From Bacteroidales bacterium (lineage in GTDB: Bacteria > Bacteroidota > Bacteroidia > Bacteroidales > P3), in the NCBI GenBank assembly GCA_017530105.1, contig JAFXMW010000078.1:1-44148 (forward strand): a stretch of 44,148 bases of DNA. Direction: 5' to 3'. Below, piece after piece: positions 6,766-30,041 of the stretch (its first letter is position 1; every line of letters begins with the position of its first letter). The position numbers were made by a program, and so were the translations under genes. The notes beneath the pieces were generated by a model, which did not search any database, had not been told where the DNA came from, and worked only from the letters and a program-made list of their open reading frames with translations.

Positions 6766-6798
6766 ATTTCAACCAATTTTGACCATTTAAACCAATTT

Positions 6799-6833
6799 CA
6801 ATTCTCAATTCTCAATTCTCAATTTTCAATTTT
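6799..6833. repeat. Five tandem 7-bp units that supply the adaptor gene's stop codon
   Basis: CAATTCT occurs three times (6799-6805, 6806-6812, 6813-6819), then CAATTTT twice (6820-6826, 6827-6833). Read on the minus strand, the first units encode the last residues (KIEN) and the TGA stop of the adaptor protein. The rest fills most of the 53-base gap before the permease. Confidence 0.75.
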
Positions 6834-7893: not shown

Positions 7894-8466
7894 CACTTTT
7901 TTTAATTTTAACGTGTTTTCACAACAAAAAGCCTCCCCAGAGGCCAACCCCACAAAAATCAACCCACCGAGAAGAGAGAACAATGGAACCGCTGCAGCAT
8001 CTCATCCGGGATGAAGAAAGTCCAGTGAACTTTTGATAGCGAAGCGGAGAACAAAGCAGGGGTGGGATGTGGGGACTTCTGGATTATATAGACTTTTTCT
8101 CAAATCGGTCATTGGATTGTACCCATTCGACCCCTGCTGGGTAGCAAATACTCCGAAATAGTTTTCATCTTCATGACAATCGTTTTGGGTTTAACCCTGA
8201 CACTAACCAAAATAACCGATTAAGGTTGGTGATAAGGTCGCTTATGGGGCATCGTTTCTTCATCTGTTGTCTTGCATTTCTCTATCTATTGGATATAGAA
8301 GTAATATATATGTGATATATATGTGACGAAAGAACTAATGACCGATTTGGGATAAACAGATATGAAAAGGAGGAGCGAGGGGTCTGGCAACAGTCGCCGG
8401 GGGTGCAACAGACTACTGATGGGTTACAATGAATTCGTCATTTCCTTTCTAATTAAAAAAAATTCG
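7894..8466. other. Non-coding intergenic region with short inverted and tandem repeats
   Basis: No credible gene lies in these roughly 570 bases. Visible structure: a 13-base perfect inverted repeat, CAAATCGGTCATT at 8101-8113 and AATGACCGATTTG at 8337-8349. Inside it is a direct tandem repeat of ATATATATGTG at 8304-8314 and 8315-8325. A segment at 8038-8055 (GATAGCGAAGCGGAGAA) closely resembles one after the giant gene. An in-frame upstream extension of the giant ORF from 8362 crosses this stretch but is not part of the real gene. Confidence 0.6.
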
Positions 8467-8474
8467 TATATTTG
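8467..8474 (+). promoter_or_regulatory. Bacteroidota -7 promoter element for the giant gene
   Basis: TATATTTG, a perfect TAnnTTTG match followed by C, lies 22 bases before ATG 8497. Transcription would start about 8478-8482 and give a very short leader. Because the element lies inside the longer open frame that begins at 8362, it argues that translation starts at 8497. Confidence 0.7.
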
Positions 8475-8496: not shown

Positions 8497-11400
8497 ATGA
8501 GGACACCATTACACAAACTTCTCGCAGTCATACTATTACAACTAATCATCCCTGCGAGTTATGCACAATACTCTGTTAATTTAGCCAACAACGACACTGT
8601 CTGGATAGACGGTTGCCAGCACCCCGACGGGACAATTTACGACAACGGGGGCCCCGACGGTAATTACTCCAACGGTTTCAACGGCTATGCCGTCATCAGT
8701 GTGCCCGCAGGGGTCTCCATCTCTCTTTGGGGGTCCTTTCACACCGAAAGTGGCTACGACTGGTTCTCGGTCTACAACAGCGTCGGCACCGGAGGCTCCC
8801 CGCTCGCCGACCATAAAACAGGGGAGGGAACGCTGACCCCCACCGTCGTCTCCACCTCAGGCTATATGACCATTTATTTCCACACCGACGGCTCCGTCCC
8901 TTACCCCGGCCTCGTCCTCAACTATTCATGTAGGGGCGTGGGGGAGGATTGCACCAACGGTCCCGAATCGGTAACAGTGACCAATATCACCACTTCATCC
9001 GCCCAGATAAACTGGAACGCCACAAACCCCTCCGGTCCATTCCTGGTCGACGTGAACGGAACCCTGCACACTCTCAATACCAACAGTCTGAGCCTTACCG
9101 GGCTGAACGCCAACACCCACTACGACTTCGCCATCAGCAGCGTGGCCGACGACTGGGCTCCCTGCTGCACCGCCCGCGAGAGTTTCCGCACAGCCTGCGG
9201 CACCATGGACCCTCCCATGCAAGAGAGTTTCGACGACTACGGAACAGGCTATAACATCCTGCCTACCTGCTGGACCAAACTGCTCAACTACGACGACACC
9301 CTCAACGAACCCCAGATTGTGGGCAACCCCTACAGCAGCTCGCCGGGAGCCCTGCGCATGTACTGCGGCAGCAACAACGACGGCAACCACTATTCTATGG
9401 CTATCGGACCGCGGATGAATGTGGCGGACATCGCCACCATGTCGGTACGATTCAGTCTCCGCGCAGCATACAGCGGCACCTACATCATTGTGGGCGTATG
9501 CGACAGCACCCTGCGCAGCAACAACAACTTCACACCCGTCGACACCGTCACCATCGACAACATCAATCTATGGGAGGAAAAAGTCGTCAGCCTTGCCCCC
9601 TACACGGGTACAGGCAAATACATCGCCTTCCGTATGCAGCGCAGCCTGCAGACGGGCGACGGACGTTTCCTTTTCATCGACGATGTGGCCCTCATCCCCT
9701 GCGGCACCTGGAACGAACGCCTATACAACCGTACATACAACAGCATGTGGCTCAGCTTCGACACCATCGGGTCGCCCACGGTGAATGTCGAATACGGTGT
9801 TGCCGGATTCACTCCCGGCACAGGTACAACTCTGACAGGGGTCTCCTCTCCCCTCCGCCTCACCGGACTCACCCCCTCCACACTATACGACGTGCGCATC
9901 CAGCCCCACTGCTCTGGTGTTCAGTCGGAAGAACGCCCCCTGCAATGGTCCACCCTTGAACCTCCCGACAACAACCTGAACTTCTGCACTACCTTCGACG
10001 ACTCCCCCGACCTGCCGCCGCTCTGGCGGGGTACCGACTACTACGACGGCACGCCCTGCACCTCCACCAACCGCTTCAGGAATGGCAACCGCGCCCTGCG
10101 TATGCGCCCATACTACACCAGCACCATGCCCATCGCCGTCCTCCCTCTTACCGACACAGTATCGTTGCGGCACCTCAGCGTAGCCTTCTATCTCTATTCC
10201 GACGGCTACACCTCCGGACGCATCGAGGTGGGTGTGATGGACTACCCCGAAAACGCCTCCAGCTTCACCCCCGTCGACACTGTGTTTTGCACCGCCAGCA
10301 ACAGATGGCTATACAAACAGGTGTCGCTAAACCGCTACACAGGCGTCGGGCAATATATCGCCCTGCGAGCCTCCGACCCCAACACAGCCTACAATTCAAT
10401 GTATATCGACGACCTGCAGCTTGCCTCATGCCTCGTCGACGGCGTCCACCTCACCAACATCGGCTCCCATTCCATCGAAATACGGTGGGACACTGTCGAC
10501 ACCCGTTTCCATGGCGACAGCATCGTGGTGGAATATGGTGGCATCGGATTCACCGAAGGCTCCGGCACACGGCTTGTCATACCCGTGCGAGGCAACACCG
10601 TGCAAACTGCAGGCAGATGGCAGAAAACAGTCATCAGCGGTCTGATGGCAGACTCCACCTATCAGTTTATCGTCTACGGGCTATGCGACACAATGGTACA
10701 GCACTGCGACGCCGTCCGACCGTCCGCGCACACCCTCCCTCAGGACATCCTCCTGCCCTACTGCATGAACCTCGAAGGCATGGCCGACGGCTCCTACCCC
10801 TCGGGATGGCACCGCCCCTCAATGTACGACAACACCCCCCGCATCATCACGGGCGGCACCCCCCGCCACACCGGCACCAGTGCTCTCTACCTCCTCTCCT
10901 ACCACGACCTCGAAAACCACTCCACCATAGTGCTGCCCCTGTTCGAAACCGACAGCATCAACGGACTTGTGGTGAGCTTCTACACCTGGAGCGAAGCAAG
11001 CAACGGACAAACGCTCGAAATCGGAGTGATGGACAACCCCGACGACGAAAACACCTTCACCACTGTTGTCTCCACACCCGTAGCCTACAACTACTGGGAA
11101 AGCCATGTACACACACTCAACGGCTACACCGGCACAGGACGCTACATCGCCATACGCACACGCAACAGCAACTACTGGACCTACGGCGGAGTATGGATTG
11201 ACGACCTCATCGTCAGCGATGCAGCAGCGCGCAACCGCACCGTAAGCAGCATCACATCGCATGGCGCCACCTTCACCTGGCAGCCCTGCGGACGTGCCTA
11301 CAACGGAGCCATCGTCGAGTGGGGTCCCTCAGGCTTCGCCCGCGGCACAGGCACCAGTGTCACCGTCGACGCCAACACCTTCAGCCTCACCGTCGACACG

Positions 11401-14400: not shown

Positions 14401-17400
14401 TTGACCGAATATGAATTCAATTTCAAGTCGCTCTGCGATTGCGAAATCATCGGCGCTACCTATCTTCCTGGAGGCGGCAGCCCCGGCACCACCTCCGGCG
14501 GCAGCTGGGGTGGCGGTGGCGGCACCGGAGGCGGTGGCGGAGGCGCCGGCGGCGGATGGGGCGGCGGCACAGGCGTCGTCATCACCACCCAAGCCCACTA
14601 CCTCGAAATTCCCTACTGCGAATCCTACGAGACCTACGACACCCTCCCATTCCCCACAGGCTACCGTCGCATCGTCGGCTCCTCTAACCTCTATCCCGCT
14701 CTCACCACCACCAACCACCACAGCGGCGAATCCTGCATCGCCCTCTACACCACCACCGACACCGCCTGCTACATGTCGCTCCCGCCCCTCGAGGAAAACA
14801 CCACCAACGAAATGGTATTGACCTTCTACGCCTACGCCACCAATGGCTACGCAACAACAACCGACGTGCTGCATATTGGCATCATGACCAACCCTGACGA
14901 CCCAACCACCTACACCGAAATCAACGCATACCGGCTCGCCAGCACCGCCCGCTGGCAGCAGTTCAGTGTCGACCTCGCCCCCTACGCAGGCTCAGGGCAA
15001 TACATCACCTTCCGCTACAAACCCCTTTATGCCAGTTACATCTATTACATCGACGACATCTACGTCGGTCGATGCGGCATCTCAGATGTCCATTTCACCA
15101 CTTCGCCCACCACGGTACAGGTTGCCTGGACCTCCCTGTACAACCCCTCCGCCGTCAACATCGAGTATGGCCGCCAAGGGTACGACCGCGACGACAGCAC
15201 CTACTCCCCCACAGTCATCACCGCCCATTACAGCCCCTACACAATCGTCGGCATCGACCCCGACAGCAACTACGATTTCTACATCATGGCGCAGTGCAAC
15301 GACACCGACATGGCCCTCTGCTCTCCCGTGGCCTACACCCTCAACCCCATGCTCTACCCTCCCTACTGTCAGGATTTCGAGGACCTGCCCTCCGGCGTGC
15401 TCCCCGACCACTGGAAAGTGGTACGCGGCCGCGATCAATATCCCTTAACCGAAACCCAATACGACCAGCAGGTTGTAGCCTTCTCGCCCTGTTCCGGCCA
15501 CGACAACACCGTCCTGCTGCGTCCCCTGCCCTCCGGCGACTCGCTGGGCGGCAAATGGGTCTACGCCTATTTCTCCACCTCCAACAACAACTACATCTAC
15601 CTCGACTTCGGCACCCTCACCGACACCTCCGATGCCAACACCTTTGTGCAGATGGCCTCTATCAACAACCAACAAACCAACACCCTGCAAGAATTCAACA
15701 TACAGCTCAGCGGCGGCAACCCCGCCTACAACCGTTTTGCCATCCGCGCCCGCAGCACCTCGGGATGCCGTTGGATCAGGCTCTCCAAACTTGCCCTCTC
15801 CAACTATCCCTACCCCACTGCTCTCAGCAGCTCCGTCTACGGCTCCTCCAGCCGCCGGATTACATGGAGTGGACAATACAACAACCCTTACTACACCATC
15901 CTCTACGGCTACGGCGACAACTGGCGCACCCTCGCCAGCGACAGTTGCCAGGCCCTGCTCAACAACCTCGAACCCTCGCAGACCTACCAGGTCTTTTTCA
16001 TCAGCCCTGCGGGCGAACGCCTCTGTCTGCCCTACACCTTCACCACCCCCGATGCCGTATCTCTGCCCTATTGCGAAAACTTCGACACCTACGACAACCT
16101 TGTCGTACCCCCCGGATGGTACAGCCATAGCGCCTACGGCGACAACTACCCCCGCACTTACAACTACTCCTACAACAGCTGCTGCCGCACCCTCGACTTC
16201 TACACCGACTACAGCCACCTGCAATACACCGCCCTCCCCGATTTCAATATCGACAGTGTACGTCATCTCGACCTCCAGTTCTCGCTGCGTATCGACTACA
16301 TCAGCCGTACACGCCTTGTTGTCGGTGTGATGGACGACCGCGCCGACTTCAACACCTTCACCCCTGTCGACACACTCACCTGCCCCACCGGCAGCGTATA
16401 CTACCCCCAGCATGTCTCTCTGGCTCGTTATAACGGCACAGGACGTTTCGTCACCTTCCTCATCTCCACCACAGGCGGACGTGAGCCTCTCTATCTCGAC
16501 GACCTGCAGGTCTCCGCCTGTTCCCTGCCCGACATCACTGTGGCGGGTTCCAGACAGATGAAAGCCTCCCTCCCCGACAGCAGCACCACAGCCGACTACT
16601 GGATAGAATACGGTCCCCAAGGATGCTCGCAAGGCGACAGCACCAACACCCTGCTACACGTCACCCAAAACCCCTATTACATCACCGAACTCGAGCCCAA
16701 CACCCAATACAGTTTCTTTACCCGCTGTTTCGAAGAATACCCCACCTGCGCCCCCCCCGTCATCCTCACCACCACAGACGAACTGCACATCCCCTTCTGC
16801 GAAAACTTCGACACCTGCCCCAACTACCAGATGCCAAACGGATGGACCCGGCACAATAGTTACAACAGCAACTACCCCCGCAAGAACAGCGACGGCATCA
16901 TCCAGTTTTACAACAACTGCAATAACAACAGCCGAAGCTACGCCGTTATGCCCGATGTGGCCATCGATTCACTCAACCGTCTCGACCTCTACTTCGACCT
17001 CTACAATGAACGTGCCCAGTTCCTCATGATTGTCGGCGTAATGTCCGACAAAGACGACCCCGAAACCTTCATCCCCGTCGACACTGTGCAAAACATCCCC
17101 ACCAACTCATGGCAGCCCGTTCACGCCTCGCTGCACAACTACCACGGAGCTGGCCGGTTCATAACCTTCTGCATGGTCAACACCACAGGCAATTGCAATT
17201 CCATGTACATCGACAACCTGCGCATCAACGACCATCCCACCCCCTCATACGCTCTCACCGGTGCCACCACCGTCACCGTCACCTCCAACGACACCCTCTC
17301 GCCCGACTACTGGATAGAATATGGTCCCGAAGGCTGCAACCCCGGCGACACCACCAACACATGGCTGCACATCACCTCCCCCACCTACTCCATAACCGGC

Positions 17401-20400
17401 CTCGACACCATGACAACCTACCACTTCTACCACCATTCCGACAGCGGCGACGTCACCTGCTTCCCCCCGCAGTCCGTCACCACCTCAGTCGAAGTAGCCT
17501 TGCCCTATTGCGAAAATTTTGAAAGCTACGCCTATGATATCCTTTCAGGAGGTTGGATGGCCTACCCCGACTGCAACTATTATAGCACTCTCACCCATAT
17601 TTGGTATGTCTCCTACGGATGGACACAAAGTGTCAATCTCGAATTTACAGGCTACTGCAACCAATGGGTATTGATGCCCTCCATTGCCCTGAATGGCAAC
17701 ACTGACATTCAGTTTTCATGCCGCTTGGGCGTAAATGGATATTGCCAATCCCAATTCGTCCAGGTGGGCATTTTGACCGACCGTCAGAATATGGACTCCT
17801 TCATCCCTGTCGAAACCTTGCAATGCTCGGCGAACTCGGTTTCCCAGCCGAAGGTTGTCAACTTCCACGGCCTCGACGGTGTGTCGGCCAATATTGCATT
17901 CCGCTACATCAACAATGTCGGAGGCTATTCAATGTATATGGACAACATTTCTGTGTCGGCAATCCCGATGCCGGATATTAACATCGTTGCCTACAATGCC
18001 ATTGAGATTGTATCCGACACTTCGTTCCCCTTCCACCCCTACTGGATACGCCTCGGTGCCGACGGTGTCGACAGCATGATTCTTGTCGACTCGACGCCTT
18101 TCCCTATCCACGGGCTGACCCCATCGACCTCTTATTGCGTCACCCTCTACGAGGACAGCATCACCCCCTCGTGCCACGAAGCCGTCTGCTTCACCACTTC
18201 GCATCTGCAATCCCTCCCCTACTGCGAGGAGTTCGCCGACTACGGCACAGGCTCCGGGGCTTTCCCCACAGGCTGGCAACGTCTCATAGGCGACAACAAC
18301 AGCAACAGGCTATACATCCAACACGACTACGATGCACCCGACTACCGCGACCTGCGTTTCGAGACCTACAACGGGATGTACCTCTACGCCGTGTTGCCCG
18401 AAATGGATGTCGACAGCCTCCGCAACCTCTCGCTCCGCGCCACGATGTGGAGTTCATCCGACCCTGCCACCCTGTTCCTCGAGGTGGGCGTGATGACGGA
18501 CATGAGCGACACGGGCTCTTTCACAGTGGTGGACACCCTGCGGGGCACCCAGTCCCAATGTTGGGAGCCCGTGTCGGCACGTCTGGAGCGGTACAGCGGT
18601 GCAGGCCGCTTTGTTGCCCTCCGCATGAGGGAGACCACCGGCAACTCGCGCGCCATCTGGATTGACCGTCTCGAGGTGCTTCCCTGCGACATCCCCGCAG
18701 GGGTTCGCGCCAGCCTGTCGCGACACAACGAGGTGCGCATCGACTCGAGGGAGCCTTCCCGGACAGGCTTCTGGCTGGAGTATGGCACTACGGGGTTCCA
18801 GCAGGGCACGGGACATTTTGTCCGTGTCGACAGCCTCCCCCTCTTTCTCACACTGCAGAACCGCACTTCTTACGACTTCTACTTCCGGTGCGACAGCCTC
18901 TCTCCCACCTGTACACCTCCCCACACCGTCACCACTCAGGACGGCCCGTTGCCGTTGCCCCTGTGCATCAATTTCGACACCTGCCAGAACAACCGTATGC
19001 CCTACGGTTGGCACAACCTAAGGGTGCCGCAGGAGAGTGGCAACGACTGCTATGTCTATAGCGACCAAAGCCACACCCCTGTCAGGTCGCTGCGCTTCTA
19101 CTCCAATTCCACCGAACGCAAACCATACGCGGTGCTGCCGGATTTGCAGGTGGAAAGCCTGTCGCAACTGGCTGTGTCGTTCTGGATGCGGTGCAACAAC
19201 TACGGCACTTTTATCCTCGAACTCGGTGTGATGAGCGACCCATACGACGCCAGCTCTTTCATCTCTATTAAACGTTTCACCAATACGCAGAGTAACACTT
19301 GGCAGCGGATGCAGGCGGTACTGTCCAGTGCTCCAGCCGATGCCCGTTTTGTGGCTTTCCGCCTGACAAAGACTTCGGGCAGCTACGACTGGCTGTATCT
19401 GGACGATTTGTATATCGATACCTGCGGAGCTTCGGATTTACAGGTGAGCGGGCTCACCTCCGACCACCTTACGCTGGACTGGCGTCAGACGGGGCAACCT
19501 ACGGTGACGCTGGAATACGGACCCATAGGCTTTGCCGCGGGCAGTGGCACTACAATCCATCCCGCCAGTCCACCACTGACAGTGACGGGTCTTGACAATC
19601 TGATGAATTATGAATTCCGTTTCTCTGCCTCGTGCGGCGGCAGCATGCTGTGGGATTTCTGCAACACGTTTTATTGCGACACGGTGACCCTCTTCACCCC
19701 GGCAGGAGGTACGGGATGTATCGACCCGACAAACCTGACTGCAGACTACACGACGTGTACATACGGCTCGTACAGCAACCCCCGCAGCCATATGGGAATA
19801 GTGGACTTGGGCAACCAGAGTGCTTTGAGCCGTCACACGGTGCATTACGACACGACGGAACGCGACCCGCGCACAGGTGGCTTGCTACGGACAGTTCCTG
19901 AAGGTGCGGAGGCCTCGGTGCGTCTGGGCAACTGGACTTCGAACAATTCCGACCCCGAGGCAGAGTCGGTGACGTATAGCCTTTTTGTCGACCCGTCGTC
20001 GTTCGACTTGTTGATTCTGAAATATGCAGCTGTGTTGCAGGACCCTGAGCACAGCGCAATACAACAACCCAGGTTCAGCATCGAGATTCTCGATGAGTAC
20101 AACGGGCTGATTGACTCGCGCTGCGGGGCGGCGGACTTCATTGCCAACGCCAATCTGGGATGGAACGAGGCCGCCAACGATGTGCTGTGGAAGGACTGGA
20201 CTACGGTGGGTCTGGACATGAGCGCCTACGCCAACCAGACCATCCGCATCCGTCTGACTACCTACGACTGCGGCGAGGGCAGCCACTATGGCTATGCCTA
20301 TTTCACTCTCGACTGCCTGCTGAAGAATATCCGCGCGGAGTACTGCGGCGAGGTGGAGTCGAATGTCTTCACCATGCCCGACGGTTTCAACTACAACTGG

Positions 20401-23400
20401 TATACCGACACGGTGAACAAGACTTCGCTCTTCACAACCCAGTCCATCACTATCCCCACTTCGAACACGACTTATTTCTGCGATGTGTCGTTCGTCGACA
20501 AGGCAGATTGCTTTTTCACCATGTCGGCCTACGCGGGCACCCGCTACCCGCTGGCTTTGTTCGACTCGGTGGTGTCGCTGACGGGCTGCCGGTTCTATGT
20601 GCAGTTCAACAATCTCAGCACCGTCTCCACCGACGGGGTGACCCCCATCGGCACGGGCGAGGGCTGCGAGTCGGCCTACTGGGATTTCGGCAACGGCATG
20701 ACCTCTACCGACTATAACGGCAGCACGGTCTACACGTCGCCGGGGTCGTACGATGTGATGCTGGTTTCATACCTGGGCGGCGGCAGTTGCGCCGACACCA
20801 TTGTCAAAACGCTCGTCCTCGAATATCCGTCGGCCACTCCCGCCATCTATGGCCGCACAGACCGCTGCATGGGCGACCCCGCCGACACCATTATTGTTCA
20901 AAACGGAGTCAGCTACCAGTGGGTCGGCGGCGACTCGGCTTCGGCGGGCGACTCGGTGTTGGTGCTTGCTCCTGCAACCGACACGGTTGTCCGGTGTGTG
21001 GTGACCAGCGCGGCGGGCTGCACCGACACCCTCGCGCTCAGCATTGCCGTGCATCCCGTTTTCGACATTCACGACTCGCTGGCTTTGTGTTCCTCGGCTT
21101 TGCCTTACCTGTGGGGCGACACTACTTTGCAGGCCGGCACCGCGAGCGGCTCTTACGCCATACACCGCACGACGATGGCGGGGTGCGACAGTTCGCGGGC
21201 GATGGATTTGACCGTATGGGAAGTGTCGACGGGCGACACGACGGCAGTGGTTTGCGACAGTCTGGTGTGGTACGACTCGGTTTTCCGCCTCACGCCTGCC
21301 ACGCCTCCCACCCACACACTGACGAGTCGCCACGGTTGCGACTCGACGGTGTCGCTGCATCTGTCTGTCCTCCATTCTTCGGGCAGCAGGCTCTTCGACA
21401 CGGTTGCGGCCAACAGTCTGCCTTACCTTTACCACGGCCACGAGCTGACAGGCGACACGGTGGCAGAGGTGACTATCGCCAACGCTTCGGGTTGCGACAG
21501 CATTGTCGTCCTCCACTTGACAGTAATCTGGAACACATATAGCACCCTTTACGACACGGTATGCGACAGCGAGCTACCCTATACGTGGAACCACCGCACG
21601 TTCACCGAGGCGGGTACGCAGTACGACACGCTGGTGAACAGCCTCGGCTCGGACAGCCTGGTGACGATGATGTTGCATGTGCTTCCCACATGGCACTTCG
21701 ATTTCCACGACACGATTTGCAGCAACCAGTCGGTCACCTTCGGCGACAGCTCCTATAGCACGGCTGGCGACTACAGCCAAGCCTTGCTCACCACCGCAGG
21801 ATGCGACAGCATCCGCACCCTGCACCTCATGGTGTACAATACATCGCATACCGACACCTTGGTCACAGCCTGCGACAGCTACACATGGCATGATACCACA
21901 TTGACGCAATCCTTGTCTTTGACCGACACGCTGACCAATGTTTTCGGCTGCGACAGCACGGTGACGCTGCATCTCACCGTCAACCACTCCGATACTTCCC
22001 ACCTTTCATTCTCAGTCTGCGATAGTTTGATATGGCACGATGTATCCTACTCTGAAAGCGGTGATTTCCTCATCAACGAGGGTTTCAATACCACAGGATG
22101 TGACAGCATTACAGAATTGCACCTCGTCATTATTCATTCTGCTTCACCCAGACACCCTGCCAACCAAGCCATAATGCCAGGCGATACGGTTCGATTGATA
22201 TCAGGGGGTGCCAACTATATTTACTGGTCCGATGCCGATGGCAACACTATTGCGACAGGCGACACATTAATTGTTGCTCCCGCATCCACCACCACCTACT
22301 ACATCCATTCTTTCGACGACGGCCTTGATATTATTTCCAATGGAGGTTTTGAATCGGGAAACACTGGATTTACCTCAGACTACCAATACAGCACCAACCT
22401 TGTGCCAGAAGGGCGATATGCCATAGGATCCAACCCACGCAATTTCCACCCCGACTTTGCCATTGCTTCCGACCACACAACGGGCAGCGGCAATATGATG
22501 GTGGTTAATGGTTCGGGGAATGCAGGGACAGTTGTTTGGTCAACAAACATCCCCGTGACGCCCCATACCTATTATGCATTTGAAGCATGGTTATCCTCTG
22601 TGTCACTCGGCAACTATGCATTGATGCAATTCAGCATAAACAACTCTCAACTCGGTTCACCATTCCAAGCTCCCACATCAACCAACCAGTGGGAACGTTT
22701 CTACGAAATATGGAACAGCGGTGACGACACCACAGCCACTATCACCATTCTGAACCAGAACACAACTCTCGGAGGCAACGACTTTGCCCTCGACGACATC
22801 TCCTTCACCGACCTCTCTTTCTGCCCAACCGTCCGCAGTGTCACCGTATCAGTAGGTTCTACTCTTGATACGACCATCTGCGACAACATGCTTCCCTTTA
22901 ATTGGGGCAACACCCTGTTCACATCAGCCGGCATACAAACTGACACCGTCTTGACTTATGACGGACGAGACAGCATTGTAAATAAAGTGTTGCACGTATT
23001 ACCCACTTACAATCTCGAATACTACGACACGATTTGCAGCAACCAAAGCTACGCCTTCGAGGACTCCATCTACACCCTTACCGGCACATATACCCACCTG
23101 CTGCACACTGCCACTTCACCGCAGTGCGACAGCATCCGCACCCTGCACCTCATGGTGAACAATACATCGCATACCGACACCTTGGTCACAGCCTGCGACA
23201 GCTACACATGGCATGATACCACATTGACACAATCCTCGTCTTTGACCGACACGCTGACCAATGCATTCGGCTGCGACAGCACGGTGACGCTGCATCTCAG
23301 CATTCAGCACAGCATCACCGATACTATCAATGCAGTGATACTCGACTGGAATCTCCCATTTATCTTTGCAGGCGACACCTTTTTCACACCCATTATAGGG

Positions 23401-26400
23401 ATGCAGTATCACTTTACTAGTTCAGCAGGCTGCGACAGCCTGGTTATCCTCAACTTGAGCATTATCAACACCCTCTTGCCCGACAACGTGGATAGCGCGG
23501 ACTGCATCATGTCACCCGAAAGGTCTGAATGGGGTATACAAGTAGGGTGGTCATCCGCCCCGATTGTTGCCAACCGGAACATTCCTTTGGTTGGAGACCT
23601 AGACGGAGACAGCATTCCTGAGATTGTCTGTTTTGCTCAGAATGGAGAATCTTATTATTTCGGTCCTATTTCAAGATACAATACGCTACTGGTATTCGAC
23701 GGTTCAACCAAGGTTCTTAAGGAAACCATCACATTGCCATCGCCTGTCTCGGGCTATGAGGCTGCCGCATACGGCTTAGTGAAGACTGCAGCAGGAGTGG
23801 GGTTGATTATCGTGGCTTCGTACGACTTCAAGCTGAGGGCATATGACATTACGTCAAGTAATCCAAGCTTGCCATATTGGATTTCCGATGTTGACTATGG
23901 CTCGAACACTGGCGACTGGTCGGTGAATCTCGGATTCGCAGATTTCAATCAGGACGGCCACCCGGAGCTCTATGTCCGAAACAAGATTTATAATGCCGAA
24001 ACGGGCACCCTGCTCGCATCTGTTGCAGGCAGCACCAACACGGGTTCATCCTATTCGCATTGGACACATATCACACATTGGAAGCTCTCGTCTCCCTTTG
24101 CCGCGGATGTATGTGGAGACGCTAAGCCAGAATTGATATTGGGCAACGAGATTTACAATGTGAGTATCACCAATACGAGCGGATCAAGCGGCAACACCAT
24201 ATCGCTTGCCAGACAGGTCACCCCTCCTAGTAATGTACCCGCCGACGGTCATCCACAGGTGGCCGACTTCAATCTTGACGGCTATCCTGACATCCTAATC
24301 TCTATACGCTCTACCGACAATCAAAACGGCACGGTATACGGATATGTGTGGGACGTACACAACAACAGCACAAGCTCTCCGTTCTCGATTAACACATCAT
24401 GGTCTGGAAAGAGTGTCCCGATGATTGCCGACATTGACAACGATGGTAATCTTGAGGTACTTATTCAGTGTGGAGTGGCGAACAGTGACAACAAATTCCG
24501 TGCATACAAATACATAGACAGCCTACAGTCCTTCACTCTGATGTGGGATCTGTCCACCGATGAGGACTCTTATTCGAACAGCATCACAAGTTTTGACTTC
24601 AACCAGGATGGTCTGCTGGAATTAATCATTTGCGATCAGTCAAGGGTCAGAATTGTGAATGGAAGCGGAAAAAGCCATTTGACATACAACGATACAGTCC
24701 CGGTATATGTAATGAATGTGTTTCCGTTCACCGAGGTCACCATTATGCAATACCCACTGATTGCGGATGTGGATTGCGACGGCAATGCGGAAATTGTCTC
24801 TGTGGGCAACCACCAGCTCAATATCTTTGAATCAACAGGATTTCCTTGGGCTCCAGCCCGTAAGGTGTGGAACCAGTATTTGTACAACGTCACATGCGTA
24901 AACGAAGATTTGACTATCCCGCAGTACTTGTTCAATAACGCAACCGTCTTTATCGACCCTGACAATGTAGCAAGACGACCGTATAACAATTTCCTACAGC
25001 AGGCCACCACTATCAACCAATACGGACAGCCGTTTAATGCCGTACCTGACGCTGAGAGTGTGTCTGCAACGGCTTCCCGTAACGACGATACGCTTACCCT
25101 CACTGTCTCTTACTGCAACCGAGGGGATGACCGTCTGATAGCTCCTTACGGCATTACTGTGTATTTGAACGAGTATCTTGGCACCTTACTGTGGACAGAT
25201 ACCGTGACGACAAGCCTCGATATTGACAGTTGCACAGCGTACTCGATCCTTATCCCCATCAATGCACTATGCGGTTTGCAGAGTAGCGACTCTCTGCTCA
25301 TTGCCTTGAACGACTTTGGCGACGGCATTGCACAACATGGAGCCTCTCAACTCGAATGCGATACTGCGAATAACACCATATCAATCGGTACCACTATTTA
25401 TCGTAGCAATAGCGATACAAGTGCCGTCTCTTGCGACAGTCTGATTTGGCATGGTTTAGAATTAACCGCTTCCTGCGATACCACACACGTTCTTTCAAAC
25501 ATCTATGGATGCGATAGTGTGGTGACAATGCACCTTACTGTTTACCACAGTACTGCTGACGACACGTCGGCCTCAGCCTGCGACCAGTTCACCTGGCACG
25601 ACTCGGTCTACACCGCCACAGCCACCGCTTCATTCTTCACTACGGGCGCTCAGGGCTGCGACAGCGTGACAACGCTGCATCTTACCGTCAACCACTCCTC
25701 CTCCTCGGTCTATTACGACACCTGCACGGAGAATCAACTGCCTCGCGTTTTCCACGGCCTCACGGCTTTCGGCGACACGGCCAACGCTTCCGTCACGATT
25801 ACCAATGCGGCAGGTTGCGACAGCGTGATTTCGTACCATCTCCATGTCCTTTGGAATAACCGCACCACGCTCTACGATACTATATGCGACAGCCAGCTGC
25901 CTTACGTGTGGAACCACCGCACGTTCACCACAGCGGGTACGCAGTATGACACGCTAATGAACAGCCTCGGCACGGACAGCCTCGTGACGATGGTGCTGCA
26001 TGTGCTGCCCACGTACCATATTGACCTCTTCGACACCATCTGCAGCAACCAGAGCCTCGCCTTCGAGGATTCCACCTATTCGCTCCCCGGCACGTACACC
26101 CGTGGGCTGCTCACCGCTACCCTGCCACAGTGCGACAGCGTCCGCATGTTGCATCTCACGGTGCTCAACACCTCGTCGGGCGACACCTCCGTGACTGTCT
26201 GCGACAGCTTCACCTGGCACGACTCCACTTACCTCTCCTCCACCACTCTCTTTTCCACCTCGACCAACGCCCAGGGCTGCGACAGCGTGACAACGCTGCA
26301 TCTTACCGTCAACCACTCCGACCATCTGACAGTTTGGGACACCATCTGCACGAACCAGCTTGTGGGCGGGTACCCGCTCCTCGACACGCTCTTCTACCCG

Positions 26401-28050
26401 GGTACCTCATCGGGCCTGTACGCCCTGCAGCGCACCAACAGCATGGGCTGCGACAGCACGGTGACCCTTGCCCTTGTGGTGCACGACAACTCGTTCAGCA
26501 CGGTCTACGACACTATTGTTGAGAACCAGGCTTCGTCGTGGATGTATAACGGCGTGGCTATGGCGCACGATACCGCCAACTGCATCTTTGTCCTCGCCAA
26601 CCACTGGGGTTGCGACAGCACCATTAACTACAACCTCCACATTTGGCGCAACAGCCTGACGACTGTCGACAGCACCATCTGCGACAATCAGTACAGCTCT
26701 TTCGTTTGGTATGGGCAGGCGGCGGCCGACACCCTTCGCACCACCCTCGCGGGCAGCCACGGCACGGACAGCACCGTGGTGTTGGCGCTGCATGTCAACC
26801 CGACGTACCACTTCCACCGCTACGACACGATTTGCGACAACCGCTCCGCCACGCTCGGCGACACGGCCTACAGCCTGTCGGGCGACTATAGCCTCAGCCT
26901 CGTTTCCTCGCTGGGGTGCGACAGCACCGTCACCTTGCACCTCACCGTCTACCCGACTTACCACACGCACCTCTTCGACACCATCTTCCCCGGCGACACC
27001 GTTTTCTTTGAGGGCGACGCCTTCACCCAGACGGGCGATTACAACGCAAGCTACTCCTCCGCGCTGGGTTGCGACTCGGTCATCACGCTCCATCTGTATC
27101 GAATCCAGTTGATGGAAAGTGTCCGTTTCGACACCATTTGCGAGGGCGACACCTTCTATTTCTACGACCGCCCACTCACCCTCGCAGGCACCTACCGCGA
27201 CACGATTGCGTCGGCAAGCCATCTGTTTGGCGATACCATCGTCGTTGAGAACCTGTCGGTGCTGCCCTATCCGACCATCCTGTTCGATACCACCCACCAA
27301 TGTAAACCCGAACCTTACTACACCCTCACCGCTCACACCGATGCTCCTTATCTCCGCTGGTCGTCACGACCCTCCGACAATAACTTATCCAATTACGCGG
27401 GCGACAGCATCCTGCTGCTGAACCCGTCGCAGACCACCACCTACAGGCTCACCGCCGACTACAGCCCCCGCGCCCTGTGCCCCACCGACGACAGCATCAC
27501 GCTCATCCCCATCCATCCTGTGGAGGCTCGCATTGCCTACGCGCCCGATTTCCTTTCGGACGACAACCGGAGACTTGAAGCTTACAACAACGGACACGGT
27601 CCTGTCAACCACCGCAGATGGGAGGTGTGGTACAACGATATGCCTGCGCTTACGGACACCTCCGGCACACTGAGGCTTGATGTCCCCATGCAGGTGGACA
27701 GTCTGGTGCTGTTCCTTACGGTGACCAACCTCACCTGCGCCGACACCGACACGGCGTCGGTCCCCATTCTCAAACAGAGCATCTACTTCCCCAATGTCTT
27801 CACCCCAGGCGAGAGCACCAACAACACTTTCTTCGGCTTCGGCACGGGTATCCTGCAATTCGAAATCTGGATATATGACCGGCGCGGGGACCTTGTGTTC
27901 CACAGCACCGATTTCAACGAGAAGTGGAACGGTACCCACAACGGGGTTACATGCCACCAGGGAACCTACGTGTATCGCTGCCGCTATACAACCCAGTTGG
28001 TGCCTAACGGCTGGCAGTCTGTCACAGGTACCGTCACCCTATTGCGTTAA
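8497..28050 (+). CDS. Giant multidomain T9SS-secreted surface protein (type B sorting domain)
   Basis: The gene encodes 6517 residues (about 0.7 MDa). ATG 8497 is chosen over 8362 because it follows a promoter and opens a clean signal peptide (residues 1-23, ending SYA before Gln). Domains: CUB-like, about 25-150; a fibronectin-III-like domain, about 152-236; 14 modules of about 240-260 residues (about 237-3735), each a jelly-roll (MAM-like) domain bracketed by Cys (start like PYCENFD, end like YIDDI plus Cys) followed by an FN3-like domain with VEYG-type strands; a linker with PKD-like and Ig-like domains to about 4185; short Cys units in three blocks; a galactose-binding-like NGGFESGN domain; an FG-GAP/VCBS-like propeller with a CARDB-like domain; and a CHU_C type B sorting domain at 6429-6517. 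Inferred role: surface adhesin or matrix protein exported by T9SS and fixed to the cell surface. No enzymatic motif is seen. It appears monocistronic. Confidence 0.93.
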   Translation: MRTPLHKLLAVILLQLIIPASYAQYSVNLANNDTVWIDGCQHPDGTIYDNGGPDGNYSNGFNGYAVISVPAGVSISLWGSFHTESGYDWFSVYNSVGTGGSPLADHKTGEGTLTPTVVSTSGYMTIYFHTDGSVPYPGLVLNYSCRGVGEDCTNGPESVTVTNITTSSAQINWNATNPSGPFLVDVNGTLHTLNTNSLSLTGLNANTHYDFAISSVADDWAPCCTARESFRTACGTMDPPMQESFDDYGTGYNILPTCWTKLLNYDDTLNEPQIVGNPYSSSPGALRMYCGSNNDGNHYSMAIGPRMNVADIATMSVRFSLRAAYSGTYIIVGVCDSTLRSNNNFTPVDTVTIDNINLWEEKVVSLAPYTGTGKYIAFRMQRSLQTGDGRFLFIDDVALIPCGTWNERLYNRTYNSMWLSFDTIGSPTVNVEYGVAGFTPGTGTTLTGVSSPLRLTGLTPSTLYDVRIQPHCSGVQSEERPLQWSTLEPPDNNLNFCTTFDDSPDLPPLWRGTDYYDGTPCTSTNRFRNGNRALRMRPYYTSTMPIAVLPLTDTVSLRHLSVAFYLYSDGYTSGRIEVGVMDYPENASSFTPVDTVFCTASNRWLYKQVSLNRYTGVGQYIALRASDPNTAYNSMYIDDLQLASCLVDGVHLTNIGSHSIEIRWDTVDTRFHGDSIVVEYGGIGFTEGSGTRLVIPVRGNTVQTAGRWQKTVISGLMADSTYQFIVYGLCDTMVQHCDAVRPSAHTLPQDILLPYCMNLEGMADGSYPSGWHRPSMYDNTPRIITGGTPRHTGTSALYLLSYHDLENHSTIVLPLFETDSINGLVVSFYTWSEASNGQTLEIGVMDNPDDENTFTTVVSTPVAYNYWESHVHTLNGYTGTGRYIAIRTRNSNYWTYGGVWIDDLIVSDAAARNRTVSSITSHGATFTWQPCGRAYNGAIVEWGPSGFARGTGTSVTVDANTFSLTVDTLQPNTTYDCYITAISNTTETTCNFGCNTFTTLEYPTAASYCYGFEDVPTYGFPNGWSRPVTFDSRPRVEDIARTGNRSLFLRSYNCGENSNYSSMAVMPYLEETDLTGLTLTFYTRGYNYYSRNRLYVGMLTNPVDPATFDTIAEIDYNWSDNWQRHTIDLSTYAGTGRHIAFCCSTLYSCNDGYLYIDDITISSCDLTDIHLYSVTSHDAWLTWSTTGDVDSVEVEYINTTSATPVVITNATPPLHLAGLDSDATYTCQLRPHCTGSANSCSNNIYTFTTRTDSIVPGHCENFNWMNYNQTPQYWTTLKNHDSRPWIIDNPSTDYCTSPSRSIEFYTCSGNGNGNFLVMPATENPVAGGVISFSLRCTNSDVRNRARLTVGVITLPYDSTTFVPIRTLYPTYQWKRYNIDLSSYTGTARHIAFRYTSLDGCHYTYLDDLGYSLCRPGDLRATNITDQSVRLTWRHYGTHTAATTYTVEYGPAGYTPGSGTLLRTTDTSVTISGLTNSTSYRFSVWSSCQDSNECQQEHVTIHTLDEPLLTPFCNNFDSETPDQMPADWTRTYGDQYPRISTQRYKTSNQSLQFYSYCCNNWSDQTSMCAMPVVSTVGTQLYIDFYYYNENPNATLQIGLMTNPHDTNTFTLLHTIRGGSSWNRVKRNLSPYTGNAPYIAFRYRAAYCSSGYAYIDDITLRTCAITSCNLSGLGQDGVDVVWHTSPGCPGVWMTYGLSGSSQSPPTYHTSSPIHISGLTEATQFTVHLWPQCDSTPDNCNYETLREETLHTWVNIPYCTNFDGIASNSFPNNWRRLSTVGSDYPRTSSSVRHSENNSMQFYATDSLFSLAAMPTINPTSSCMAVSGLYANFWTRFNGYTSSARLVIGVMTDILDTNSFIGVDTLIGNNAEWEHHTLSLSAYTGNGHIIAFKLLSSDGSWCECYLDDLCIEKCVASDLTITDITQNSITVNWTSQGSRGLIVEYGPRGFAHGHGTFDTLLNSPATIEGLSELTEYEFNFKSLCDCEIIGATYLPGGGSPGTTSGGSWGGGGGTGGGGGGAGGGWGGGTGVVITTQAHYLEIPYCESYETYDTLPFPTGYRRIVGSSNLYPALTTTNHHSGESCIALYTTTDTACYMSLPPLEENTTNEMVLTFYAYATNGYATTTDVLHIGIMTNPDDPTTYTEINAYRLASTARWQQFSVDLAPYAGSGQYITFRYKPLYASYIYYIDDIYVGRCGISDVHFTTSPTTVQVAWTSLYNPSAVNIEYGRQGYDRDDSTYSPTVITAHYSPYTIVGIDPDSNYDFYIMAQCNDTDMALCSPVAYTLNPMLYPPYCQDFEDLPSGVLPDHWKVVRGRDQYPLTETQYDQQVVAFSPCSGHDNTVLLRPLPSGDSLGGKWVYAYFSTSNNNYIYLDFGTLTDTSDANTFVQMASINNQQTNTLQEFNIQLSGGNPAYNRFAIRARSTSGCRWIRLSKLALSNYPYPTALSSSVYGSSSRRITWSGQYNNPYYTILYGYGDNWRTLASDSCQALLNNLEPSQTYQVFFISPAGERLCLPYTFTTPDAVSLPYCENFDTYDNLVVPPGWYSHSAYGDNYPRTYNYSYNSCCRTLDFYTDYSHLQYTALPDFNIDSVRHLDLQFSLRIDYISRTRLVVGVMDDRADFNTFTPVDTLTCPTGSVYYPQHVSLARYNGTGRFVTFLISTTGGREPLYLDDLQVSACSLPDITVAGSRQMKASLPDSSTTADYWIEYGPQGCSQGDSTNTLLHVTQNPYYITELEPNTQYSFFTRCFEEYPTCAPPVILTTTDELHIPFCENFDTCPNYQMPNGWTRHNSYNSNYPRKNSDGIIQFYNNCNNNSRSYAVMPDVAIDSLNRLDLYFDLYNERAQFLMIVGVMSDKDDPETFIPVDTVQNIPTNSWQPVHASLHNYHGAGRFITFCMVNTTGNCNSMYIDNLRINDHPTPSYALTGATTVTVTSNDTLSPDYWIEYGPEGCNPGDTTNTWLHITSPTYSITGLDTMTTYHFYHHSDSGDVTCFPPQSVTTSVEVALPYCENFESYAYDILSGGWMAYPDCNYYSTLTHIWYVSYGWTQSVNLEFTGYCNQWVLMPSIALNGNTDIQFSCRLGVNGYCQSQFVQVGILTDRQNMDSFIPVETLQCSANSVSQPKVVNFHGLDGVSANIAFRYINNVGGYSMYMDNISVSAIPMPDINIVAYNAIEIVSDTSFPFHPYWIRLGADGVDSMILVDSTPFPIHGLTPSTSYCVTLYEDSITPSCHEAVCFTTSHLQSLPYCEEFADYGTGSGAFPTGWQRLIGDNNSNRLYIQHDYDAPDYRDLRFETYNGMYLYAVLPEMDVDSLRNLSLRATMWSSSDPATLFLEVGVMTDMSDTGSFTVVDTLRGTQSQCWEPVSARLERYSGAGRFVALRMRETTGNSRAIWIDRLEVLPCDIPAGVRASLSRHNEVRIDSREPSRTGFWLEYGTTGFQQGTGHFVRVDSLPLFLTLQNRTSYDFYFRCDSLSPTCTPPHTVTTQDGPLPLPLCINFDTCQNNRMPYGWHNLRVPQESGNDCYVYSDQSHTPVRSLRFYSNSTERKPYAVLPDLQVESLSQLAVSFWMRCNNYGTFILELGVMSDPYDASSFISIKRFTNTQSNTWQRMQAVLSSAPADARFVAFRLTKTSGSYDWLYLDDLYIDTCGASDLQVSGLTSDHLTLDWRQTGQPTVTLEYGPIGFAAGSGTTIHPASPPLTVTGLDNLMNYEFRFSASCGGSMLWDFCNTFYCDTVTLFTPAGGTGCIDPTNLTADYTTCTYGSYSNPRSHMGIVDLGNQSALSRHTVHYDTTERDPRTGGLLRTVPEGAEASVRLGNWTSNNSDPEAESVTYSLFVDPSSFDLLILKYAAVLQDPEHSAIQQPRFSIEILDEYNGLIDSRCGAADFIANANLGWNEAANDVLWKDWTTVGLDMSAYANQTIRIRLTTYDCGEGSHYGYAYFTLDCLLKNIRAEYCGEVESNVFTMPDGFNYNWYTDTVNKTSLFTTQSITIPTSNTTYFCDVSFVDKADCFFTMSAYAGTRYPLALFDSVVSLTGCRFYVQFNNLSTVSTDGVTPIGTGEGCESAYWDFGNGMTSTDYNGSTVYTSPGSYDVMLVSYLGGGSCADTIVKTLVLEYPSATPAIYGRTDRCMGDPADTIIVQNGVSYQWVGGDSASAGDSVLVLAPATDTVVRCVVTSAAGCTDTLALSIAVHPVFDIHDSLALCSSALPYLWGDTTLQAGTASGSYAIHRTTMAGCDSSRAMDLTVWEVSTGDTTAVVCDSLVWYDSVFRLTPATPPTHTLTSRHGCDSTVSLHLSVLHSSGSRLFDTVAANSLPYLYHGHELTGDTVAEVTIANASGCDSIVVLHLTVIWNTYSTLYDTVCDSELPYTWNHRTFTEAGTQYDTLVNSLGSDSLVTMMLHVLPTWHFDFHDTICSNQSVTFGDSSYSTAGDYSQALLTTAGCDSIRTLHLMVYNTSHTDTLVTACDSYTWHDTTLTQSLSLTDTLTNVFGCDSTVTLHLTVNHSDTSHLSFSVCDSLIWHDVSYSESGDFLINEGFNTTGCDSITELHLVIIHSASPRHPANQAIMPGDTVRLISGGANYIYWSDADGNTIATGDTLIVAPASTTTYYIHSFDDGLDIISNGGFESGNTGFTSDYQYSTNLVPEGRYAIGSNPRNFHPDFAIASDHTTGSGNMMVVNGSGNAGTVVWSTNIPVTPHTYYAFEAWLSSVSLGNYALMQFSINNSQLGSPFQAPTSTNQWERFYEIWNSGDDTTATITILNQNTTLGGNDFALDDISFTDLSFCPTVRSVTVSVGSTLDTTICDNMLPFNWGNTLFTSAGIQTDTVLTYDGRDSIVNKVLHVLPTYNLEYYDTICSNQSYAFEDSIYTLTGTYTHLLHTATSPQCDSIRTLHLMVNNTSHTDTLVTACDSYTWHDTTLTQSSSLTDTLTNAFGCDSTVTLHLSIQHSITDTINAVILDWNLPFIFAGDTFFTPIIGMQYHFTSSAGCDSLVILNLSIINTLLPDNVDSADCIMSPERSEWGIQVGWSSAPIVANRNIPLVGDLDGDSIPEIVCFAQNGESYYFGPISRYNTLLVFDGSTKVLKETITLPSPVSGYEAAAYGLVKTAAGVGLIIVASYDFKLRAYDITSSNPSLPYWISDVDYGSNTGDWSVNLGFADFNQDGHPELYVRNKIYNAETGTLLASVAGSTNTGSSYSHWTHITHWKLSSPFAADVCGDAKPELILGNEIYNVSITNTSGSSGNTISLARQVTPPSNVPADGHPQVADFNLDGYPDILISIRSTDNQNGTVYGYVWDVHNNSTSSPFSINTSWSGKSVPMIADIDNDGNLEVLIQCGVANSDNKFRAYKYIDSLQSFTLMWDLSTDEDSYSNSITSFDFNQDGLLELIICDQSRVRIVNGSGKSHLTYNDTVPVYVMNVFPFTEVTIMQYPLIADVDCDGNAEIVSVGNHQLNIFESTGFPWAPARKVWNQYLYNVTCVNEDLTIPQYLFNNATVFIDPDNVARRPYNNFLQQATTINQYGQPFNAVPDAESVSATASRNDDTLTLTVSYCNRGDDRLIAPYGITVYLNEYLGTLLWTDTVTTSLDIDSCTAYSILIPINALCGLQSSDSLLIALNDFGDGIAQHGASQLECDTANNTISIGTTIYRSNSDTSAVSCDSLIWHGLELTASCDTTHVLSNIYGCDSVVTMHLTVYHSTADDTSASACDQFTWHDSVYTATATASFFTTGAQGCDSVTTLHLTVNHSSSSVYYDTCTENQLPRVFHGLTAFGDTANASVTITNAAGCDSVISYHLHVLWNNRTTLYDTICDSQLPYVWNHRTFTTAGTQYDTLMNSLGTDSLVTMVLHVLPTYHIDLFDTICSNQSLAFEDSTYSLPGTYTRGLLTATLPQCDSVRMLHLTVLNTSSGDTSVTVCDSFTWHDSTYLSSTTLFSTSTNAQGCDSVTTLHLTVNHSDHLTVWDTICTNQLVGGYPLLDTLFYPGTSSGLYALQRTNSMGCDSTVTLALVVHDNSFSTVYDTIVENQASSWMYNGVAMAHDTANCIFVLANHWGCDSTINYNLHIWRNSLTTVDSTICDNQYSSFVWYGQAAADTLRTTLAGSHGTDSTVVLALHVNPTYHFHRYDTICDNRSATLGDTAYSLSGDYSLSLVSSLGCDSTVTLHLTVYPTYHTHLFDTIFPGDTVFFEGDAFTQTGDYNASYSSALGCDSVITLHLYRIQLMESVRFDTICEGDTFYFYDRPLTLAGTYRDTIASASHLFGDTIVVENLSVLPYPTILFDTTHQCKPEPYYTLTAHTDAPYLRWSSRPSDNNLSNYAGDSILLLNPSQTTTYRLTADYSPRALCPTDDSITLIPIHPVEARIAYAPDFLSDDNRRLEAYNNGHGPVNHRRWEVWYNDMPALTDTSGTLRLDVPMQVDSLVLFLTVTNLTCADTDTASVPILKQSIYFPNVFTPGESTNNTFFGFGTGILQFEIWIYDRRGDLVFHSTDFNEKWNGTHNGVTCHQGTYVYRCRYTTQLVPNGWQSVTGTVTLLR
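9205..19704 (+). repeat. Array of 14 jelly-roll plus FN3-like modules
   Basis: Modules begin near 9205, 9970, 10748, 11513, 12265, 13018, 13750, 14605, 15352, 16060, 16783, 17497, 18210 and 18952. The period is about 710-780 bases, except one of 855 bases that carries a Gly-rich insert. Each module starts with a Cys-Asn/Glu-Phe-type motif, has P.GW in the first 30 residues, an LxxGVMxDxxDxxTF strand in the middle, YTGxGRYIAFR, then YIDDL and a closing Cys. A shorter FN3-like domain follows. Modules are alignable in protein but divergent in DNA. Confidence 0.85.
14466..14577 (+). repeat. Gly-rich low-complexity insert in the giant protein
   Basis: About 37 codons rich in GGC/GGA/GGT specify a Gly-dominated stretch (for example GGGGGTGGGGGGAGGGWGGG) between the FN3 part of module 7 and the jelly-roll of module 8. 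None of the other 13 junctions has it. It probably acts as a flexible linker. Confidence 0.8.
21061..22140 (+). repeat. Short Cys repeat block 1 (7 units)
   Basis: Seven units of about 42-48 residues. A typical unit begins with (V/I/A)CDS followed by YTW or LPY and ends GCDSxxTLHLTV. The unit type is widespread in T9SS-secreted Bacteroidota proteins. Paired Cys residues could form disulfides after export (inference). Confidence 0.8.
21802..21976 (+). repeat. 175-bp near-identical internal duplication, copy 1
   Basis: Matches 23125-23299 over the same length with five mismatches by eye (about 97% identity). It covers the end of one short Cys unit and the whole of the next. Confidence 0.85.
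22141..22860 (+). other. Domain insertion between Cys-repeat blocks 1 and 2 (galactose-binding-like)
   Basis: The repeat array is interrupted by about 240 residues: a short Ig-like strand set (GGANYIYWSDADGNTIA), then a module opening with ISNGGFESGNTGF and containing DHTTGSGNMMVVNGSG and a closing FALDDISF strand. That pattern is typical of galactose-binding-like, carbohydrate-binding jelly-roll domains. Codon use here is richer in A and T than in the 14-module array. Confidence 0.6.
22861..23475 (+). repeat. Short Cys repeat block 2 (4 units)
   Basis: Four units of the same type as block 1. Their order (ICDN-LPF, ICSNQS, ACDSYTW) repeats the order of units 4-6 of block 1. Confidence 0.75.
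23125..23299 (+). repeat. 175-bp near-identical internal duplication, copy 2
   Basis: Partner of 21802-21976 at an offset of 1323 bases. The reading frame is kept. Confidence 0.85.
23476..25398 (+). other. FG-GAP/VCBS-like propeller plus CARDB-like domain within the giant protein
   Basis: About 640 residues without the Cys-repeat pattern. Six acidic, calcium-loop-like motifs are visible: DLDGDSIPEI, DFNQDGHPEL, DFNLDGYPDI, DIDNDGNLEV, DFNQDGLLEL and DVDCDGNAEI, spaced as in integrin-alpha-type beta-propellers. A CARDB-like beta-sandwich follows (SYCNRGDDRLIAPYGITVYL to CDTANNTI). The acidic loops probably bind calcium. Confidence 0.75.
25399..27270 (+). repeat. Short Cys repeat block 3 (12 units)
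   Basis: Twelve further units of about 42-48 residues. Units 2-6 of this block follow the same order of subtypes as units 2-6 of block 1. A 48-base perfect repeat (starting CAGGGCTGCGACAGCGTGAC) occurs at 25651 and 26272. Confidence 0.8.
27781..28047 (+). other. Type B T9SS C-terminal sorting domain (CHU_C)
   Basis: The last 89 residues begin IYFPNVFTPGESTNN and contain FEIWIYDRRGDLVF, KWNGTHNG and GTYVYRCRY, the hallmarks of the gliding-motility-type CHU_C domain. It directs export through the T9SS and retention at the cell surface or in the medium. Confidence 0.93.
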
Positions 28051-29932: not shown

Positions 29933-30041
29933 CCTTCGCTCCTTATCCGATTCTTATACCTCAGTTCTCCCATATTTCTCCCATCCTGCATGGGAGAAAT
30001 ATGGGAGAAATATGGGAGAACTAACGAATAACGAGCGAAGG
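29933..30041. repeat. 109-bp imperfect palindrome with nested 11-bp tandem repeats
   Basis: Outer arms CCTTCGCTCCTTATCCG (29933-29949) and CGAATAACGAGCGAAGG (30025-30041) match with two mismatches. Inner arm 29963-29984 is a perfect reverse complement of 30001-30022 over 22 bases. The right side carries three tandem copies of ATGGGAGAAAT (29990-30000, 30001-30011, 30012-30022, the last ending CT); the left carries two reverse copies. It lies between the EamA gene and the DUF4332 gene. It could be a terminator, a REP-like element or a small non-autonomous mobile element. Confidence 0.8.

Follow-up and report, generated by a model that had tools for sequence, protein, structure and literature searches.

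The window analysed here is a 44,148-nucleotide contig (JAFXMW010000078.1) of an uncultured Bacteroidales bacterium whose genome assembly consists of 146 contigs and is 83% complete. A very long open reading frame in this window raises the question of whether it is one real gene, how the protein that it encodes was put together and what such a protein might do at the cell surface. The frame runs from an ATG at 8362 to a stop at 28050 (6562 codons, no internal stops). An ATG at 8497 gives a protein of 6517 residues (720 kDa, pI 4.6) and is preferred as the start because the translation then opens with a signal-peptide-like stretch, because a similar leader lies within the frames of all four orthologues and because a promoter-like box, TATATTTG, is located at 8467, inside the N-terminal extension that a start at 8362 would add. 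The box has the pattern TAnnTTTG, the Bacteroidota -7 consensus. A promoter and terminator scan 3' of the gene end gave nothing telling. A preliminary description had presented the locus as one giant gene built from 14 jelly-roll modules and 23 short Cys units; the uninterrupted frame (8497-28050, + strand, 6517 residues) bears this out, and profile searches agree with its coordinates, domain order and both counts. The features are as follows.

8467..8474, + strand: promoter-like box (TAnnTTTG) just 5' of the chosen start
8497..28050, + strand: whole gene, 6517 aa plus stop; start chosen from the leader and the orthologues
8497..8565, + strand: signal peptide MRTPLHKLLAVILLQLIIPASYA, a signal-peptide-like stretch judged by eye in the translation
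8566..8964, + strand: CUB-like domain, under the cut-off here and over it in the G027 orthologue
8965..9201, + strand: FN3 domain ahead of the first J module (profile built from the protein itself)
9205..19707, + strand: 14 x (choice-of-anchor-J jelly roll + FN3), from own profiles, Pfam, NCBIfam and module orthology
9205, 9964, 10750, 11503, 12256, 13015 and 13747, + strand: approximate starts of J1-J7
14611, 15352, 16057, 16783, 17494, 18208 and 18949, + strand: approximate starts of J8-J14
14467..14574, + strand: 36-residue glycine-rich stretch within the FN3 domain that follows J7
19708..20421, + strand: domain X and the start of an Ig_7-like domain; most conserved segment (83-96% amino acid identity to four orthologues)
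20422..21063, + strand: PKD-like and Ig-like domains (Ig_7 over cut-off; PKD_4 and PKD under)
21064..22131, + strand: Cys-unit block A, 7 units
22132..22845, + strand: carbohydrate-binding-like domain (by eye), probably inserted block, GC3 0.55
22846..23463, + strand: Cys-unit block B, 4 units, GC3 0.64
23464..24948, + strand: FG-GAP/VCBS beta-propeller, probably inserted block, GC3 0.56
24949..25392, + strand: CARDB-like domain (label by eye) after the propeller, GC3 0.53; no family match over cut-off
25393..27264, + strand: Cys-unit block C, 12 units
27265..27786, + strand: domain preceding the sorting signal, itself unmatched by any family
27787..28047, + strand: T9SS type B sorting domain (CHU_C / TIGR04131)

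By profile matching, the domains are mostly of known kinds, and two parts, the Cys unit and domain X, have no Pfam or NCBIfam match over cut-off. The giant frame is real, its head is under selection and it belongs to a family spread through the genus. The preliminary description of "three repeat systems" hides a history in which an old fixed head, an elastic Cys-unit stalk and a probably inserted block can be told apart.

The gene is flanked by RND efflux genes upstream (on the other strand) and by an SDF-family symporter gene downstream. RND efflux genes likewise lie upstream of the orthologue in G020, about 8.7 kb off; none was found in the G027 and G140 stretches examined, save a 22% identical RND pump in G140. 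Elsewhere in the window, a gene between those for FGAM synthase and an M20 peptidase encodes a Peptidase C10 protein (39707-41251) that includes a Spi-type inhibitor domain and ends in a weak match to DUF6383. Short tandem repeats of 8, 7 and 11 bp are found at 1735-1769, 6793-6835 and 29990-30020, respectively, the second of them at the gap between two efflux genes.

The conserved head

Profiles made from the protein itself recognise 14 J and 15 FN3 domains, one FN3 preceding J1. The two domain types are recognised independently by NCBIfam choice_anch_J (NF038128; 227.6 and 38.6 bits on the two protein halves, cut-off: 30, in 10 + 2 stretches) and Pfam fn3 (146.2 bits, cut-off: 25, in 6 stretches). 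The J domains of the window share 21-45% identity with one another; J14 contains a weak match to NCBIfam NTTRR-F1. The CUB-like start scores 19.0 bits in the window, below the cut-off of 21.4, and 27.8 bits in the G027 orthologue. A PDB profile search with domain X returned nothing useful. The glycine-rich stretch after J7 is alike in G020 and G026 and shorter in G027; the same pattern did not find it in G140.

The same 14-module head is present in four other genomes of the genus, the metagenome-assembled genomes G020, G026, G027 and G140 (loci L052, L053, L054 and L061, respectively). A profile of domain X and the PKD start matches 113 of 120 genus genomes, five of which, including that of the window, carry a near-identical X (E-value: 1e-225 or lower; next best: 1.9e-159). 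All five of these members have the head order CUB-FN3-(J-FN3)x14-X-PKD-Ig. Each J domain of the window pairs best with the J domain of the same number in nearly all cases (14/14 in G027, 13/14 in G020, 13/14 in G026 and 12/14 in G140), the exceptions being J12 and, in G140, J11 as well. The J12 of G020 resembles a copy of J11 (69% identity to J11 of the window). Module 12 (17494-18207) shows 27-29% identity to its counterparts in G020, G026 and G140 versus 48% in G027, and its unlike forms among the five orthologues look as if the module had been swapped as a whole unit. A few FN3 identities, among them a value of 100% off the diagonal, result from short overlaps and are artefactual.

Purifying selection acts on the head. 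Of 36 segment comparisons, 34 give a dN/dS of 0.05-0.46 and two are uncomputable, with dS often near saturation; domain X has the lowest values (0.05-0.06 in three of four comparisons). In a wider search, the profile of X and the PKD start matches 20 loci in named genomes, seven of which have a ruminant host in their titles, nine RUG or RUI names (presumably rumen genomes), three no habitat and one the name of an uncultured Kordia. This Kordia is far outside the genus, and its match to X is weak (34% identity over about 100 residues; L071 10001-10327). In more distant relatives, X is preceded by anything from no J domain to about 15 of them and followed by 0 to 21 Cys units; contig or locus ends truncate several of these relatives.

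The preliminary description had considered the combination of domains at this size unfamiliar. In kind, however, neither size nor combination stands alone: the whole head recurs in four other genomes, none of which has a propeller match, frames of 7194 and 8794 residues exist in the same genus, and SprB of Flavobacterium johnsoniae is 6497 residues long (PMC9870892). It had also suggested a disulfide between the Cys residues at the two ends of a J module. Of 132 distinct J domains, 92 are aligned at both ends; 60 of these have both Cys, 21 the first only, 10 the last only and one neither. The two do not correlate (Fisher p 0.29), and this bond is not supported. In the same set of loci, Cys residues at inner columns 52 and 145 tend to occur together across distinct J domains (18 both, 65 neither, 18 one only; odds ratio 16), a possible second disulfide.

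The Cys-unit stalk

A self-built profile finds the 23 Cys units, each about 51 residues long, in three blocks (7 + 4 + 12), in agreement with the preliminary description, each with an i-Evalue below 1e-16 that follows partly by construction from the use of those units to build the profile. A PDB profile search with the unit gave nothing useful. The predicted structure of four units (C3-C6, 20 rows) has five strands per unit, with a mean pLDDT of 88.9 and a pTM of 0.53. The unit occurs in 45 of 61 genomes of a first sample of relatives (37/37 of the genus and 8/24 others) and, at E-values up to 1e-6, in 15 of 395 genomes of a phylum sample, that of the window counted. Three long frames of the genus contain it in large numbers: 124 units in 7194 residues (L035-L036, G003:C2), 89 in 4580 residues (L046, G026:C26) and 110 in 8794 residues (L032-L034, G011:C65). 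The first two consist mostly of Cys units, and the third also has a choice_anch_J match.

Members of the family differ in the length of this stalk. There are 6 units in G140, 28 in G027 and 23 in the window, and at least 5 and at least 4 in G020 and G026, which are cut by contig ends. G027 contains four 627-nt copies of a four-unit segment with 99-100% identity (two identical to the first, one at 99%), a copy number that could be wrong if the assembly is from short reads. Units A4-A6 and C2-C6 of the window match G027 units at period four, and we infer that the stalk changes its length by tandem duplication.

Losses of the two Cys residues are paired across unit borders. The units of 66 frames give 648 distinct neighbouring pairs; identical pairs count once, although some loci overlap. 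Cys 1 is missing from the first unit in 51 pairs, in 44 of which the second unit has no Cys 2. Likewise, 44 of the 52 second units that lack Cys 2 follow a unit without Cys 1. The seven exceptions among the Cys-1-lacking units are matches that start past the Cys 1 position. In a strict set of 571 pairs with both positions aligned, every Cys-1-lacking unit precedes a Cys-2-lacking one (41/41), and 41 of 48 Cys-2-lacking units follow a Cys-1-lacking one; in the remaining seven, the Cys of the first unit sits one residue earlier (DTC for DTxC). In the reverse order (a unit without Cys 2, then one without Cys 1), the association is weak (11/57 versus 51/638, odds ratio 2.8, p 0.012). The 51 Cys-1-lacking units form one cluster at 35-40% identity and nine at 50%, and the pattern may have arisen once and then been inherited. 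Because these units may be a single inherited lineage, the Fisher p-values of the di-unit pattern are inflated.

This pattern suggests that, in the paired-loss units, a disulfide crosses the unit border and joins Cys 2 of the first unit to Cys 1 of the next. In regular units, a first count showed no association of Cys 1 with Cys 2 within one unit (385 both, 57 one only, 0 neither; p 0.40). A link from Cys 2 to the Cys 1 of the following regular unit was also considered and showed no association in the first count (p 1.0). Within-unit bonding of regular units is preferred here by argument and not by count. The earlier proposal of a disulfide-stiffened rod is not supported for the J modules (p 0.29), whereas the Cys units, with their paired losses, make a better case. 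A bolder reading, somewhat less likely than not, is that the Cys unit represents an undescribed family of all-beta fibre repeats from which adjustable stalks are made in Bacteroidota. Regular units would be self-bonded; conserved di-units, each composed of a first unit without Cys 1 and a next one without Cys 2, would be stapled across their border; arrays would grow by four-unit duplication and would also serve as landing sites for the insertion of whole domains into surface proteins that already exist.

Predicted export and proposed function

The type B T9SS signal that had been read at the C-terminus is upheld by two families. CHU_C scores 42.4 bits (cut-off: 27), and TIGR04131 scores 38.3 and 35.8 bits (cut-off: 35), or 31.6 bits if scanned within the longer protein half. 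The same genome encodes SprA (2346 bits over nearly the whole model) and three PorP/SprF-like proteins, all on other contigs, and contains 92 matches to type A sorting domains (90 over cut-off) and 17 to type B (13 over). For type B substrates, an adjacent porP/sprF-like gene is usual, not obligatory. None lies directly downstream of this gene, where the next gene is that of the SDF symporter. For substrates of type B, an association with PorP-like proteins (PMC9143113) and a dependence on cognate PorP/SprF shuttles (PMC12618676) have been described in Porphyromonas gingivalis and F. johnsoniae; three of the 12 F. johnsoniae type B genes are orphans too (PMC12618676).

The model that we propose is as follows. 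A single polypeptide of about 720 kDa would be made with a Sec signal peptide, exit through the T9SS translocon SprA and stay anchored to the outer membrane through its type B C-terminal domain, with one of the three PorP/SprF-like proteins as the probable partner. The C-terminus would lie at the cell and the N-terminal head outermost. The head (CUB, FN3, 14 J-FN3 modules and X) would be the old functional part, and it is likely to present several different binding surfaces because its modules are kept as individuals (compare the gingipain adhesin domains). The Cys-unit array would be a disulfide-braced stalk with a length set by tandem duplication, and the propeller block, discussed below, would add another domain that may bind something. 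The protein is thus probably a T9SS-exported, surface-tethered adhesive fibre of the size class of SprB, composed of other modules. Its adhesive function is likely. Among the points that weigh against this reading, J domains are common (54 of 61 genomes) and sit in proteins of widely differing length, so that adhesion is argued by analogy; no PorP/SprF gene adjoins the locus, unlike the SprB-SprF pair; and the profile link of J to gingipain K2 is weak.

The fibre could instead be a gliding adhesin like SprB, which the T9SS/gliding motor moves along the surface so that the cell is pulled forward. SprB is such a protein (PMC9870892), and the type B signal, the length of about 6500 residues and the SprA and PorP/SprF genes would all suit this function. 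It is nevertheless unlikely, as neither protein half has a Pfam match to the SprB repeat at E-values up to 1 and there is no adjacent SprF. A type B protein, PG1035, exists in P. gingivalis too (PMC9143113). This species is not known as a classical glider.

A mainly structural role, in which the protein is a scaffold or coat that acts as a spacer, a cell cover or a carrier of enzymes instead of binding a surface, is rather improbable. The frames made largely of Cys units in the genus (89 in 4580 residues, 124 in 7194) speak for this alternative, in that length itself may be the function, but each head module is conserved in its own right, at low dN/dS, a constraint for which a pure spacer would have no use, and there is no Pfam match to dockerin or cohesin at E-values up to 1.

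The adhesive fibre remains our preferred reading, and it bears on how giant surface proteins are assembled in uncultured Bacteroidales with ruminant-gut relatives. The build plan appears to join a head of many fixed modules to an elastic stalk, inside which further domains can be inserted. Since many genomes of the genus have the Cys unit and domain X, naming both would aid the annotation of many unknown proteins, and the paired Cys losses offer a directly testable disulfide map. Giant proteins of this kind would be candidates for the means by which such bacteria hold to fibre, host or neighbours.

The propeller block and known systems

The calcium-loop propeller of the preliminary description is well supported by FG-GAP_3 (86.5 bits, cut-off: 26.9, seven stretches). 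Seven calcium-type loops were counted by eye; a pattern scan that was too narrow gave two. The carbohydrate-binding-like domain, on the other hand, finds no backing in the libraries; nothing in Pfam or NCBIfam scores over cut-off on it, and its only NCBIfam match is NTTRR-F1 (E-value: 0.22).

Three lines of evidence make insertion of the propeller block into the stalk of an older, existing protein the simplest history, and probably the true one. First, GC3 breaks at this point: it is 0.73-0.84 in the head, blocks A and C and the tail, and 0.55 in the carbohydrate-binding-like domain, 0.64 in block B, 0.56 in the propeller and 0.53 in the following domain. Second, the block is absent from the stalks of both complete orthologues (G027 and G140), and no propeller match was found in the genomes of the four orthologues. 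Third, the tail of the window protein is nearer to those of the two complete orthologues (52-53% identity) than to those of seven propeller proteins (35-41%). Base composition indicates no donor, because GC3 varies widely (0.47-0.80) among other propellers.

In the genus, 18 of 120 genomes contain relatives of the propeller (E-value up to 1e-20), and an order sample has them in 11 of its 393 genomes; both counts include the genome of the window. Genomes with a close head and genomes with a propeller match overlap in the window's genome alone, and among the 17 other genus genomes, none of the 11 examined has this head in a propeller-bearing frame. Judged from these genomes, the propeller block on this head is the sole feature that is unique so far.

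It is very improbable that the propeller block or the array is a metagenome chimera, with two genes joined through similar Cys units: the 146 contigs and 83% completeness of the genome, a 186-nt repeat of 95% identity that links blocks A and B, the GC3 break and the absence of the block from two complete orthologues would all fit such a join. Against it, the frame is intact throughout, and exact direct repeats inside the gene reach 60-79 bp at most. When 21064-25600 was searched at the DNA level against the genome, no long near-identical stretch turned up on any other contig. The order c7-CBM-c2-propeller-CARDB-c3-tail also exists within one frame of G013. Finally, the orthologues that best match the head are also those that best match the tail, so that only the insert could be foreign. 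Insertion thus remains the preferred history of the block.

A literature search of titles and abstract starts returned none that concerns this protein, which is no proof of its absence from print. SprB of F. johnsoniae, described in PMC9870892 as a filament of 6497 aa, is alike in size, in its type B signal and in forming a long surface fibre, which is predicted for the protein described here. SprB differs in having the SprB repeat, for which Pfam gave no match here, and an adjacent sprF, which this locus lacks.

The gingipain adhesin domains and HagA of P. gingivalis are also T9SS cargo with repeated jelly-roll modules, which are distantly like J. Gingipains and HagA carry a type A signal, whereas the window protein has FN3 domains between its modules, a type B signal and no protease domain. 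In a search of the PDB, the J profile matches 3km5 (gingipain K2) best (E-value: 0.062). Cleaved_Adhesin (PF07675) matches three of the 14 J domains at E-values up to 0.1 (best: 0.00099, or 19.5 bits, below the cut-off of 21.4), and MAM matches five of 14. These profiles suggest that J is related to the gingipain adhesins only distantly.

The choice-of-anchor J proteins of Bacteroidales (NF038128) have the J domain itself in common with the window protein, over cut-off. Among the strongest matches listed, their frames are of about 0.2-2.5 thousand residues, with one of 8794, compared to 6517 here. The orthologues in metagenome-assembled genomes lack the propeller, and the two complete stalks among them consist of 28 units (G027) and 6 units (G140). 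Their head architecture, with its 14 modules, is identical to that of the window protein.
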